Assembly (NCBI GenBank): GCA_016218665.1
Contig: JACRDI010000024.1
Coordinates: forward strand, 1 to 64,000
Source of the DNA: Desulfovibrio sp.
GTDB lineage: Bacteria; Desulfobacterota; Desulfovibrionia; Desulfovibrionales; Desulfovibrionaceae
Length of the DNA: 64,000 bases
Direction of reading: 5' to 3'
Position 1 is the first letter of the stretch; each line of letters opens with the position of its first letter. Below the pieces are notes generated by a model. It was given only the letters and a program-made list of their open reading frames with translations, did not search any database and was not told the origin of the DNA. Below, piece after piece: positions 18,695 to 23,198 of this stretch. The position numbers and the translations under genes are program-made.

Positions 18695-19230
18695 TCACTT
18701 TCGTCACCGGCGGCAACAAGTCCGGCAAGTCGGACTACGCCCTGGGGCTGCTGGAATCCCTGCCGGGGCCGGCGGTCTTCATGGCCACGGGCAAGGCCCA
18801 GGACCTGGCCTTCCGCGAGCAGATAAGCGACCACCGCGTGCGGCGCGACCCCGCGCTGCCGGTGGTGGAGGCCGGCCGGGACTTGCCACATGCCCTGGGG
18901 ATGGCTAGAGAGGAATACAAGGCCGTGCTGGTGGACAGCCTGGATTTCTGGCTGTACCTCTGCATGCGGGAAGGCCGCGCGGACGAGTTCGCGGCGGCCC
19001 TTCTGGATACGCTGAAAACGCTGAAGGGCGGCGGGACGCACGTGATCCTGGTGTCCTGCGAGATCGGGCTCTCCCCGCTGCCGGCATCAAGCGAGACCAG
19101 GGCGTTCTTGAAGAAACTCGGGCGGCTCAACCAGGCCGTGGCGGCCCTGTCGGACGAGGCGTACCTCGTGGTGGCGGGCCTTCCCCTGGCGCTCAAAAAG
19201 GCGGAACATGGGTGTATCCAAGCTGACTGA
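18691..19230 (+). CDS. cobU: Adenosylcobinamide kinase / adenosylcobinamide-phosphate guanylyltransferase
   Basis: The 179-residue protein starts with the CobU P-loop GGNKSGKS, then MATGKAQD and ISDHRVRRD, the latter placing the His that is guanylylated in the family. It phosphorylates adenosylcobinamide and transfers GMP to make AdoCbi-GDP for nucleotide loop assembly. It starts at a GTG that overlaps the cbiR-like stop (GTGA) and ends inside the next gene, so translation is probably coupled. Adenosylcobinamide released by CbiR would be its direct substrate. Confidence 0.85.
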   Translation: MITFVTGGNKSGKSDYALGLLESLPGPAVFMATGKAQDLAFREQISDHRVRRDPALPVVEAGRDLPHALGMAREEYKAVLVDSLDFWLYLCMREGRADEFAAALLDTLKTLKGGGTHVILVSCEIGLSPLPASSETRAFLKKLGRLNQAVAALSDEAYLVVAGLPLALKKAEHGCIQAD

Positions 19231-20203
19231 CGAAAAGGTGCAGGCGCTGCTGCCGCTTTTGAACAAGGACCAGCGCTGGCTCATCGTCATCAACGCCGAC
19301 CCGGACTCCATGGGCTCCGCCCTGGGGCTCAAGGCCATCCTGTCGCGCCGCGTGCACGACATCGGCATCGGCCACGTGAACGAGATCAAACGGCCGGACA
19401 ACCTGGCCATGATCCGCTACCTGCGCGTGCCCACGCGCAAGCTCATCCCGAACCTCATCGCCCAGTACGACCACTTCGCCCTGGTGGACAGCCAGCCCCA
19501 CCACCACCCGGAGCTGGCCAAGCTCGACTACACCATCGTCATCGACCACCACCCGATTCTGCCGGACAAGCCGGTGAACGCGCCCCTGGTGGACATCCGC
19601 CCCAAGTTCGGCTCCACCTGCTCGCTTCTGGCCGAATACGTCCAGCGCCTCAAAATTCGCCCGCCCAAGCTGCTGGCCTCGGCGCTTTTGTACGGCATCA
19701 AGGCCGACACCATGAACTTCCAGCGCAAGTTCATCGACGCCGACATCAACGCCTTCAAGTACCTGTCCAAGTACGCCGACCACACCCTCATCACGCGCAT
19801 CGTGCGCAGCGAGTACCACCTGGAGTGGATGCGCTACTTCTCCCGCGCGTTCTACAACCTGCGCCGCATCGGCACGGGTCTCACCGCGCACCTGGGCAAG
19901 GTGGCCAGCCCGGACATCCTGGTGGTGGTGGCCGACTTCTTCATGCGCGTGCACTCCATTTCCTGGGACGCCGTTTCCGGCGTGTGCGACGACCAGCTGG
20001 TGATCATCTTCCGGGGCGACGGCATCCGCAAGGACATCGGCAAGTTCGCGGCCTCGCTCTTCGGCGACATCGGCTCCGCGGGCGGGCACAAGGGCGCGGG
20101 CCGGGCGGAGATTCCCCTGGCCGCCCTGGACGGCAAGGACCCGGAGCTCTACGTGCTCAAGAAGCTCTCCCGCGGCAAGACCAGCGGGTTCCAGCGGATC
20201 TAG
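19208..20203 (+). CDS. DHH-family phosphoesterase
   Basis: The 331-residue protein has the DHH motifs NADPDSMGSALG, VDSQPHHHP and VIDHHP, and the C-terminal DHHA1 motif GGHKGAGR. The family includes NrnA-type nanoRNases, pAp phosphatases and cyclic dinucleotide phosphodiesterases, acting with manganese in the cytoplasm. It begins 23 bases inside cobU and ends four bases before polA, so it is in the same transcript. A role in clearing short oligonucleotides next to DNA polymerase I is plausible but inferred. Confidence 0.85.
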   Translation: MGVSKLTDEKVQALLPLLNKDQRWLIVINADPDSMGSALGLKAILSRRVHDIGIGHVNEIKRPDNLAMIRYLRVPTRKLIPNLIAQYDHFALVDSQPHHHPELAKLDYTIVIDHHPILPDKPVNAPLVDIRPKFGSTCSLLAEYVQRLKIRPPKLLASALLYGIKADTMNFQRKFIDADINAFKYLSKYADHTLITRIVRSEYHLEWMRYFSRAFYNLRRIGTGLTAHLGKVASPDILVVVADFFMRVHSISWDAVSGVCDDQLVIIFRGDGIRKDIGKFAASLFGDIGSAGGHKGAGRAEIPLAALDGKDPELYVLKKLSRGKTSGFQRI

Positions 20204-20207
20204 CGCC

Positions 20208-23198
20208 ATGGCCCTCAAAGCCCGCCTGAACCTCGGCGACGCCGAGCCGCTGTACCTCGTCGACGGCACCAGCTTCCTCTACCGGGGCTTCTACGCCTAC
20301 CCGGACCTCAAGCGTTCCGACGGCATGGCCACGGGCGCCATCTTCATCGTGCTGCGCATCCTCCTGCGCATATTGCGCGAGGAAAAGCCGAAGTATCTCG
20401 GCTTCTTCATGGACGGCAAAGGGCCGAACTTCCGCCACGCGCTGTTCGAGCCCTACAAGGCCCAGCGGCCCAAGATGCCCGAGGACCTGGCCGCGCAGAT
20501 TGAACCCCTGCGCGAGGCCGTGCGCCTGCTGGGCCTGTCGCTCACCGTCAGCGAGGGCATCGAGGCCGACGACTGCATCGCCAGCCTGGCCGCGGCCAAC
20601 CAGGGGCAGCGCCCGGTGGTGCTGGTGGCGTCCGACAAGGACCTGAAGCAGTGCCTGACGCCCAGCGTGTACCTGTGGGACCCGGCGGGCAAGAACGAGA
20701 AGGTGACCGGCGAGGCCGACTTCATGGCCGAGCTGGGCATCCGGCCCGCCCAGTGGCCCGACTTGCAGGCCCTCATGGGCGACAGCTCGGACAACATCCC
20801 CGGCCTGCCGGGGGTGGGGCCCAAGACGGCGCTCAAGGTGCTGCACGACTTTCCGACCCTTGAGGACCTGAAGGCGGCGGAGGAGGCGGGCGACAAGCGC
20901 CTGCCCGAGAGCTTCCGCAAGAAGCTGGAAGGCCGCATGGACGACGTGTTCCTGTACCGCGAGCTCACGCGCCTCAAGACCGACGCCTGCCCGGAGCTGA
21001 CCCTGGACGCCCTGGCCGTGAATCCGCCGGACGTGGAGAAGCTGGCCGAGTTCCTGCGCGCCTACGAGTTTCGCAGCCTGCTGCGCGAGATCCCCCTGCC
21101 CCGGCAGGAGCAGGGGCCCGACCCGCATTCCGGCGGCTACGACGGCCCGCCGCCGTGGGAGGAGGGCGGCCATGCGCCGCTTGTTCCGCCCGCGCCGCTT
21201 TCCGCCGCCACCGCGGCGTTCACTGCGCCCGTGGGGAATGCGCCCGTGGGGAGCGCGCCGGCCAAGGCCGCAGCCTCGAAGAAGGCCGCCAAGGCCGGGC
21301 AGCTGTCCCTGTTCGGAACCGGCCCGGCAGCTGGCCCGGCAGCCGGCCAGGCAGCCAGTCAGGCCGCGCCCTCGCTGCTTGATTTCGCGTCCGCCGCCCC
21401 GGCCCAGGGCGTGCCCTCGCTGCCCCTGCGCCACGTGGCCGAGGCCTCGGCCCTGCCGGACTTTTCCGGCCGGAAGGTGGGCCTTGTGCCGTTTGGGGCC
21501 AGGGAAGGCCAGGGCGCAAGTCAGACCGGCGGCTACCGGCTGGCCTGCGAGGGCGACGAAGGCGAGCTGGTGTTCACCGGCAGCGCGGAGGCCCTGGCCC
21601 CGCTGCTGGCCCGGGCCGCGCAGGTGGCCGCGCCAAGCTGGCAGGAGCTGCTGCGCGCCAGCCGCGCCTGGGAGGCAGTGCCCCTGGAGCGCTGGTTCGA
21701 CCTGGGCCTGGCCGCGTACCTGCTGAACCCCGAGGACCGCAACTATTCCTTCGAGCGCCTGCGCCTGGCGCTGTTCATCGCGCCCGATCCCTTCCTGGAC
21801 CCGGAGGATGCTCCCCCCGATGGCGCGCTTGGCGAGGAGGCGCTTCCCCTTGAAACCCCCGAAGGGGGCCCCCTTGAAAGCCCCGAAGGGGACGAGCCCG
21901 CGCCGCACCCGGAGGCCCAGGCCCTGGCCGCGCTGGCCTGCGCGCGGGTGCTCTCGCGCCGCCTGGGCAACGCTGGGCTGGCCGAGCTCATGCGCGACCT
22001 TGAGACCCCGCTCATCCCCGTGCTTGCGGCCATGGAACGCCGGGGCGTGCGCATCGACTTCGCGGCCTTCAAGAGCTTTTTGGACGAGGTGAGCGCCGAG
22101 GTGGAGGCCCACACCCGGCGCATCCACGAGCTTGCGGGCGCGCCGGTGAACGTGCGCTCCAGCCAGCAGCTGGCCGAGCTTTTGTTCAAGAAGCTGGGCC
22201 TCAAGCCCGCGGGCAAGACGCCCGGCGGCGCGCTCTCCACCGGCAGCGAGGCCCTGGAGAAGCTCTCGGGCCAGCACCCTGTGGTGGACGAGATCCTGGC
22301 CTTCCGCGTGCAGGAGAAGCTGCGCTCCACCTACCTTGAGCCCATGCCGCGCCTGGCGGATTCCTCCGGCCGGCTGCACACGCGCTTCAACCAGCTGGCG
22401 ACGGCCACCGGGCGGCTCTCCAGCTCCGGCCCGAACCTGCAGAACATCCCCATCCGCGGGCCCCAGGGCGCGCGCATGCGGGCCTGCTTCGTGGCCTCGC
22501 CGGGCATGCTCTTCGTCGGGGCGGACTACTCCCAGGTGGAGCTGCGCGTGCTGGCGCACTTCTCCAAAGACCCCGCCCTCATCGACGCCTTCCGCAAGGA
22601 CGAGGACATCCACAGCCGCACCGCCGCGCTGCTCTTCGACACGGACGCGGCAAGCGTGAGCGCGGACCAGCGGCGCGGGGCCAAGACCATCAACTTCGGC
22701 CTCATCTACGGCATGGGCCCGCAGAAGCTGGCGCGGGAGCTGGGCATCAGCACCAACCAGGCCAAGGAGTTCATCGCCCGCTACTTCGAGAAGCTGGGCA
22801 CGCTGAAGGACTTCTACGAGGGGCTGGTGCAGGACGCCATGCTGCGCGGCTACGTGACCACCCTGGCCGGACGCCGCAGGCTGCTGCCGGAGCTCTTCTC
22901 GCGCAATCAGCAGGTGCAGGCCCAGGCGCGCAGGCAGGCGGTGAACACCGTCATCCAGGGCAGCGCGGCCGACGTCATCAAGCTGGCCATGCTGCGCGTG
23001 TTCGCCAGCCCGGAGCTGACGCGGCTCGATGCCAAGCTCATCCTGCAGGTGCACGACGAACTGCTGCTGGAAGTGCCGGAGCAGAACGCCCCGGCCGCGG
23101 CGCAGGAGCTTTCCGCCCTCATGCAGAACGTGGTCAGCCTGGACGTGCCCCTGAAGGTGGACGTGGGCCAGGGCCGCAACTGGGCCGAGGCGCACTAG
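20208..23198 (+). CDS. polA: DNA polymerase I
   Basis: The 996-residue protein has an N-terminal 5'-nuclease domain (about 1-295, VDGTSFLYRGFYA, EADDCIA, SDKDLKQ, GDSSDNIPGLPGVGPKTA). An Ala/Pro/Gly-rich linker follows (about 300-400). Next is a vestigial 3'-5' exonuclease domain without the DxE, NxxxD or YxxxD motifs, and the polymerase domain (about 605-995: TATGRLSSSGPNLQNIP, VGADYSQVELRVLAH, RRGAKTINFGLIYGMG, QVHDELLLE). It is somewhat longer than E. coli Pol I because of the linker. The linker contains QLSLF (365-369), a beta-clamp-binding type motif. Proofreading is probably absent, as in Thermus Pol I. Confidence 0.97.
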   Translation: MALKARLNLGDAEPLYLVDGTSFLYRGFYAYPDLKRSDGMATGAIFIVLRILLRILREEKPKYLGFFMDGKGPNFRHALFEPYKAQRPKMPEDLAAQIEPLREAVRLLGLSLTVSEGIEADDCIASLAAANQGQRPVVLVASDKDLKQCLTPSVYLWDPAGKNEKVTGEADFMAELGIRPAQWPDLQALMGDSSDNIPGLPGVGPKTALKVLHDFPTLEDLKAAEEAGDKRLPESFRKKLEGRMDDVFLYRELTRLKTDACPELTLDALAVNPPDVEKLAEFLRAYEFRSLLREIPLPRQEQGPDPHSGGYDGPPPWEEGGHAPLVPPAPLSAATAAFTAPVGNAPVGSAPAKAAASKKAAKAGQLSLFGTGPAAGPAAGQAASQAAPSLLDFASAAPAQGVPSLPLRHVAEASALPDFSGRKVGLVPFGAREGQGASQTGGYRLACEGDEGELVFTGSAEALAPLLARAAQVAAPSWQELLRASRAWEAVPLERWFDLGLAAYLLNPEDRNYSFERLRLALFIAPDPFLDPEDAPPDGALGEEALPLETPEGGPLESPEGDEPAPHPEAQALAALACARVLSRRLGNAGLAELMRDLETPLIPVLAAMERRGVRIDFAAFKSFLDEVSAEVEAHTRRIHELAGAPVNVRSSQQLAELLFKKLGLKPAGKTPGGALSTGSEALEKLSGQHPVVDEILAFRVQEKLRSTYLEPMPRLADSSGRLHTRFNQLATATGRLSSSGPNLQNIPIRGPQGARMRACFVASPGMLFVGADYSQVELRVLAHFSKDPALIDAFRKDEDIHSRTAALLFDTDAASVSADQRRGAKTINFGLIYGMGPQKLARELGISTNQAKEFIARYFEKLGTLKDFYEGLVQDAMLRGYVTTLAGRRRLLPELFSRNQQVQAQARRQAVNTVIQGSAADVIKLAMLRVFASPELTRLDAKLILQVHDELLLEVPEQNAPAAAQELSALMQNVVSLDVPLKVDVGQGRNWAEAH

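Follow-up and report, generated by a model that had tools for sequence, protein, structure and literature searches.

A predicted beta clamp-binding motif in the linker of a Desulfovibrionaceae DNA polymerase I with a vestigial exonuclease domain

How DNA polymerase I (Pol I) is recruited to the Okazaki nick is not clear, according to excerpts of a 2024 review (PMC11253446). The polA gene of a Desulfovibrio sp. genome (GenBank assembly GCA_016218665.1) gives this question a specific form: does a pentapeptide between the 5' nuclease and the Klenow part dock Pol I on the beta clamp, DnaN, and what would such a tether mean for an enzyme whose proofreading domain appears dead? In what follows, the window is the whole stretch of DNA analyzed, positions 1 to 64,000 of contig JACRDI010000024.1 (64 kb).

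Domain layout and linker of the polymerase

The features discussed here are as follows.
20208..23198, + strand: polA, DNA polymerase I (PolA1), 996 aa (open reading frame; Pfam DNA_pol_A, 464.1 bits; 5_3_exonuc_N, 152 bits)
20250..21035, + strand: 5'-3' (FEN-like) nuclease domain, residues 15-276 (Pfam PF02739 and PF01367; pLDDT mostly >90)
21108..21395, + strand: Ala/Pro-rich linker, predicted to be disordered, residues 301-396 (pLDDT <50 at 301-314 and 316-396)
21261..21299, + strand: Lys/Ala-rich stretch immediately before QLSLF, residues 352-364 (sequence)
21300..21314, + strand: QLSLF, predicted DnaN (beta clamp) binding motif, residues 365-369 (sequence, conservation)
21411..21785, + strand: vestigial 3'-5' exonuclease domain lacking catalytic residues, residues 402-526 (0/5 DEDDy residues)
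21786..21884, + strand: second stretch predicted to be disordered, acidic, residues 527-559 (pLDDT <50)
22071..23189, + strand: polymerase domain, residues 622-994 (Pfam PF00476)

The protein scores above the equivalog cutoff of the NCBIfam model PRK05755 "DNA polymerase I" (856.6 bits against 720). It belongs to PolA1: a FEN-like 5'-3' nuclease and an A-family polymerase domain share one chain (Pfam, PRK05755), and a 3'-5' exonuclease fold, vestigial here, lies between them (model, Foldseek). The structure used throughout is an AlphaFold model built with 58 aligned PolAs as input (mean pLDDT of 85.5), and its best Foldseek matches are the Taq and Mycobacterium smegmatis Pol I structures. In this model the exonuclease vestige is folded, with ten-residue blocks mostly at pLDDT >90 except at residues 434-439 and at the end. 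The 2.85-Mb source assembly, given as 84% complete, yielded a single A-family polymerase match. Among the nearer named records (68 to 79% identity), four are titled Humidesulfovibrio, and other titles occur as well, including one Desulfocurvus.

The first-pass annotation, made from the letters alone, had placed QLSLF at residues 365-369 of an expanded, Ala/Pro-rich linker. The position is exact, and the surroundings agree: residues 296-410 hold 28 Ala and 20 Pro in 115 residues, and residue 315 is the sole exception to a pLDDT of <50 across residues 301-396. The linker is indeed expanded, with the stretch aligned to residues 296-404 having a median length of 49 aa in the family (85 rows) and 89.5 aa in the 12 genus rows counted, versus 21 aa in the sister families (30 rows). 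When all six frames of the 64-kb window were scanned for Q[LF][SD]LF, QLSLF was the single occurrence, and it matches the published clamp-motif consensus forms QL[SD]LF and QxxL(x)F (PMC4976356) exactly. The motif scan of PolA found no clamp-like motif in the second disordered stretch, residues 527-559; this acidic stretch (21786-21884), which precedes the thumb, contains the near-repeat PLETPEGG/PLESPEGD.

Conservation of the motif among Desulfovibrionaceae

Conservation of QLSLF in Desulfovibrionaceae PolA had been set beforehand as the test of the motif. From 197 genomes of the order with a match, a sample of 30 loci and 60 fetched stretches was drawn, and the final set comprised 143 distinct full-length PolA rows (85 Desulfovibrionaceae, 30 from sister families, and 28 outsiders). 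Twenty partial reading frames, locus L168, and duplicates were left out of the counts; the partials include polA genes from the source genus that are split or truncated (L012 and L014 to L019). The family set consists of the rows with group code f1 plus named loci assigned by title and identity, and the tree described below agrees with it. As controls for chance, the published consensus forms were compared with shuffled linkers, with the reversed motif, and with other first letters.

The motif passed this test. QL[SD]LF occurs in 22/85 family linkers (0.0 expected when each linker is shuffled), QxxL(x)F in 59/85 (1.06 expected), and the looser Q..[LM].?[FL] in 77/85 (5.07 expected). After the family was thinned to 38 sequences of <80% identity, the three forms were retained in 14, 24, and 33 sequences, respectively. 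Among the 30 sister-family PolAs the same forms were found 0, 0, and 1 time, and none was found in the 28 outsiders. The reversed pattern was absent from all 85 family linkers (1.04 expected). Swapping the leading Gln for Asn, Glu, Lys, or Ala gave 1, 5, 0, and 5 of 85 (0.48, 1.33, 1.41, and 5.25 expected), with Glu somewhat above expectation. A family pattern, Q[LFAMVGI][SGTDA]L[FL], which was chosen after the data had been seen, retrieved 71/85 family linkers (0.57 expected) and 0/30 sisters; all 73 of its matches lie in the linker, with none elsewhere in the 85 family proteins. The 14 family PolAs without this pattern hold near-forms in their linkers (MLSLF, QGMLL, QLPLF, ELSLF, and others), and one of them, L005 with QLPLF, belongs to the source genus. 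A loose pattern fitted post hoc to these misses covers 85/85 family linkers (6.6 expected by shuffling) and 1/30 sisters and is descriptive only.

The tolerated variants QLSLF, QFSLF, QASLF, QMSLL, QGTLF, and QLSLL all fit the published form Q-x-x-L-F/L. QMSLL, the form present in eight family PolAs, is what we take to be the clamp motif of Escherichia coli MutS. At the DNA level, the 22 genes with QLSLF use 18 different spellings for it, which indicates that selection acts on the peptide; the 12 genes with QFSLF use 10. QLSLF is conserved among orthologues and lies in a stretch that is exposed by its pLDDT. The linker outside the motif, by eye, varies freely across the family. The distance from linker start to motif ranges from 18 to 122 residues, as would be expected of a short linear motif whose surrounding strap is unconstrained. 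Taken together, a tag kept while its strap changes freely suggests a clamp-tethered, nonproofreading Pol I.

Some preferences extend beyond the pentapeptide. Across the 71 linkers that match the family pattern, the next residue is restricted (Gly in 38, Asp in 22, and Glu in 5). Lys makes up 11.4% of the 15 residues before the motif versus 2.8% of the 15 after it, and Asp plus Glu make up 5.5% versus 17.7%. This Lys-rich and then acidic surrounding possibly reflects contact with DNA or orientation on the clamp. One PolA, L031, has both QASLF and QFSLF in its linker and QIQLF further on.

Loss of the exonuclease site and history of the motif

The claim that the exonuclease domain lacks its DxE, NxxxD, and YxxxD residues also held. 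A distant DNA search turned up no E. coli polA, and reference positions were therefore taken from outgroup PolAs whose active site is intact; none of the five DEDDy catalytic residues (DxE, D, and YxxxD) is present at the aligned places of the source PolA, in an alignment that is uncertain residue by residue within the diverged domain. The Pfam 3'-5' exonuclease family is absent from the six matches of the protein up to an E value of 1. All five residues were found together in 0/85 Desulfovibrionaceae PolAs and in 0/30 from other Desulfovibrionales families (0/115 in total), and the DxE columns are gapped in 115/115; among the outsiders, the site is intact in 16/28.

Dead proofreading can be rejected as the novel part of this design, as about half of PolA1 orthologues carry substitutions in the exonuclease site (PMC12926913, in excerpt) and all 30 sister-family PolAs are dead as well. 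A rule by which a dead exonuclease entails a clamp motif fails on the same sisters, 30/30 of which are dead yet motif free. Because the sister families combine a dead site with the absence of the motif, proofreading was probably lost before the motif was gained.

For the history of the motif, a FastTree tree of 127 rows, including 12 of the 28 outsiders, was built from the nuclease and polymerase columns, with the linker and exonuclease columns excluded. The 85 family rows form one side of a branch with a local support of 99. On this tree, ten changes are required to explain the strict motif label. The loose label needs a single change by construction, having been assigned inside the family only, and is not evidence for one origin. 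Because the misses carry near-forms, we favor one gain near the family stem followed by scattered decay, a history that parsimony does not prove.

Possible role at the clamp and related systems

The presumed partner and a further putative clamp client are present in the same genome. The source genome encodes a DnaN that matches solved clamps. It has two IMS_C (Y-family) matches, and the one read, a DinB, carries QLSLL. Twelve of 20 fetched DinB loci from the same order contain QLSLL, QLSLF, QLGLF, or QMSLF, and such a motif was not found in the other 8. An E. coli Pol IV peptide is known bound to the clamp (PMC4976356), and a QLSLF peptide binds Bacillus subtilis DnaN with a KD of 3.8 µM, about five times weaker than it binds E. 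coli DnaN (PMC12309361). The DnaE of the source genome (L182) has QGMISMLDM followed by a Gly-rich stretch in the region of the internal clamp motif; no canonical motif was found there, making it less canonical than that of Pol I. No clamp motif is shared among LigA proteins from 16 loci of 15 genomes (the source genome gave no LigA match). Their matches are mostly QxxLGF within the fold, besides singletons that are not shared (QNSLF early in the L319 frame, QRSLL in L323, and QGRLL and QEFLDL near C termini).

We consider it likely that QLSLF functions in clamp binding and has been kept by selection in the strap of Desulfovibrionaceae Pol I, where it docks on DnaN and tethers the enzyme at nicks. 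The motif, its conservation, and the lost catalytic residues can be read directly in the sequences; from them we infer binding, a role in Okazaki maturation, and a substitution for lost proofreading. QLSLF would dock in the hydrophobic cleft of DnaN, and a clamp that stays behind on a completed Okazaki fragment, or one loaded where DNA is being repaired at a gap, would hold Pol I by its middle. Such a middle anchor would leave the flap nuclease and the polymerase on either side, free to alternate at the nick. Through docking, the enzyme would gain processivity over short gaps, and its strand displacement would be held back enough for ligase to seal the nick. With its proofreading site dead, the enzyme presumably cannot idle by 3'-5' excision, and a Pol I without idling would profit most from a clamp brake. 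In E. coli, loading of the clamp slows strand displacement by Pol I, including the exo-minus form, and with exo-minus Pol I it brings ligation back to varying degrees (PMC6010275); the clamp also raises the processivity of Pol I, and a loaded clamp helps ligation (PMC6010275, PMC11253446). On the contrary side, a study cited in PMC11253446 reported that the clamp did not stimulate Okazaki maturation in vitro.

Several other explanations were weighed against this tethering at nicks. A compositional accident might be suspected where the genome is high in GC and the linker rich in Ala and Pro, as the linkers are long and contain Ala, Leu, Ser, and Gln. Such rates are absent from the shuffled linkers, the reversed motif, and the 30 sister PolAs, however, and the synonymous spellings vary; at the level of the family, these controls refute a chance origin, which we regard as extremely improbable. 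The pentapeptide could instead be conserved for another partner and merely resemble a clamp motif. Conservation by itself is compatible with this, since short motifs can serve several partners, and the restricted residue after the motif goes beyond what the pentapeptide consensus needs. Against it, the tolerated variants follow the published Q-x-x-L-F/L form and DinB proteins of the same order use the same class of peptides, and we hold this alternative to be quite improbable.

A stronger competitor, although still an unlikely one in our judgment, accepts clamp binding and assigns it to damage tolerance or repair, with a proofreading-free A-family polymerase that fills gaps and bypasses lesions, as proposed for PolA2. 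In Actinobacterial PolA2, the combination of a dead exonuclease and QxxLF has been interpreted as marking a low-fidelity polymerase that uses the clamp, and lesion bypass involves Pol I in B. subtilis and Helicobacter pylori (both PMC12926913, in excerpt). The 84% complete assembly, however, gave no A-family polymerase match besides the motif-bearing PolA, whose 5' nuclease domain is present; the genome also has its Y-family matches, one of them read with a QLSLL of its own.

PolA2/APEX of Actinobacteria is the closest described system. Like the source PolA, it is an A-family enzyme with an inactive 3'-5' exonuclease domain and a QxxLF-type motif in an unstructured stretch; unlike it, PolA2 lacks the 5' nuclease, has its motif within a loop of the exonuclease vestige, and is confined to Actinobacteria (PMC12926913). 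The source protein, in contrast, is Pol I itself, with its 5'-3' nuclease domain in place and its motif in the nuclease-Klenow linker, ahead of the exonuclease domain. The E. coli Pol I-beta clamp pair resembles the proposed system in that the loaded clamp modulates nick translation and ligation (PMC6010275), and it differs in that the exonuclease of E. coli Pol I is live. The clamp-Klenow placement in that work was obtained by docking, and its text does not contain the term "binding motif" (PMC6010275). The clamp segment of DinB (Pol IV) is of the same pentapeptide class (QLSLL in the source genome); DinB is a Y-family enzyme, however, with its motif towards the C terminus rather than between two enzymes. 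The Pol I enzymes of Bacillus and Thermus (Bst and Taq), whose exonucleases are dead, share the fold and the vestigial domain.

In the excerpts of a 2026 survey, PolA2 is described as the first member of the bacterial A family with a recognizable clamp motif (PMC12926913), and we found no report of a clamp motif in Pol I itself in searches of one open-access library. If the tether proposed here is real, Pol I itself joins the polymerases with a recognizable clamp motif, beside PolA2. Because the motif-bearing family adjoins motif-free sisters with the same dead exonuclease, the part played by the clamp can be tested through five residues.

Clamp-like motifs also appear in Pol I of other phyla. 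Fifty Actinobacterial PolAs (three of them partial) were taken from a phylum sample centered on an Actinomycetota record. In their exonuclease-domain loop, Q..[LM].?[FL] occurs in 13/50 (2.6 expected) and QL[SD]LF in 0/50. Other first letters gave 8 for Asp (4.06 expected), 8 for Gly (3.98), 7 for Ala (4.9), 4 for Glu (5.68), 3 for Ser (2.47), and 2 for Asn (1.14). By eye, a QL-x-L/F core is present in more of these proteins than the 13 retrieved. QLSLL stands in the loop of PolA1 in L221, L224, L225, and L226, and QASLL in L198; others have a looser QLxL[DE]. M. smegmatis Pol I (6vde) likewise carries QLSLLDD in its exonuclease-domain loop. The excerpted survey text assigns such a motif to PolA2 only (PMC12926913). 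In Bacillota, where raw pattern counts alone were made (51 PolAs from 53 loci), the loose pattern falls between residues 291 and 520 in 11/51, most of them in folded parts by eye, and 40/51 lack it there, unlike the family; motif-like peptides occur only in single cases. Standouts among Clostridia/Bacillota are QINLF in the exonuclease loop of L259 (identical to L105) at residue 461, QGSLF in the linker of L299 at residue 351, and QPGLF in or near the linker of L298 at residue 305.

With 30 dead sisters and most Bacillota being motif free, a clamp-motif Pol I appears bound to clades and need not accompany a dead exonuclease. A tentative extension, which we think doubtful, is that clamp docking was added more than once to Pol I with decayed proofreading: in the Desulfovibrionaceae linker, in the Actinobacterial exonuclease loop (QLSLL, QGALDL, and a looser QLSLDV), and singly in Clostridia/Bacillota (QINLF and QGSLF). 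Exonuclease decay in the Actinobacterial and Bacillota sets is presumed in this reading, having been established here for Desulfovibrionales only. If multiple origins are correct, a clamp tether would be a recurrent, nonobligatory substitute for proofreading idling while nicks are being closed, and large parts of the bacteria would have a Pol I that is a client of the clamp.

Two minor observations concern the polA locus. The gene at 19208-20203 ends 4 bases ahead of the polA start and may encode a DHH-type phosphoesterase, a guess from weak, sub-cutoff NCBIfam pyrophosphatase matches. In two genomes of the source genus or near it (L014/L016 and L078), polA is split into two frames covering approximately residues 1-547 and 597-996; in these draft genomes, the split is a frameshift or an assembly error.
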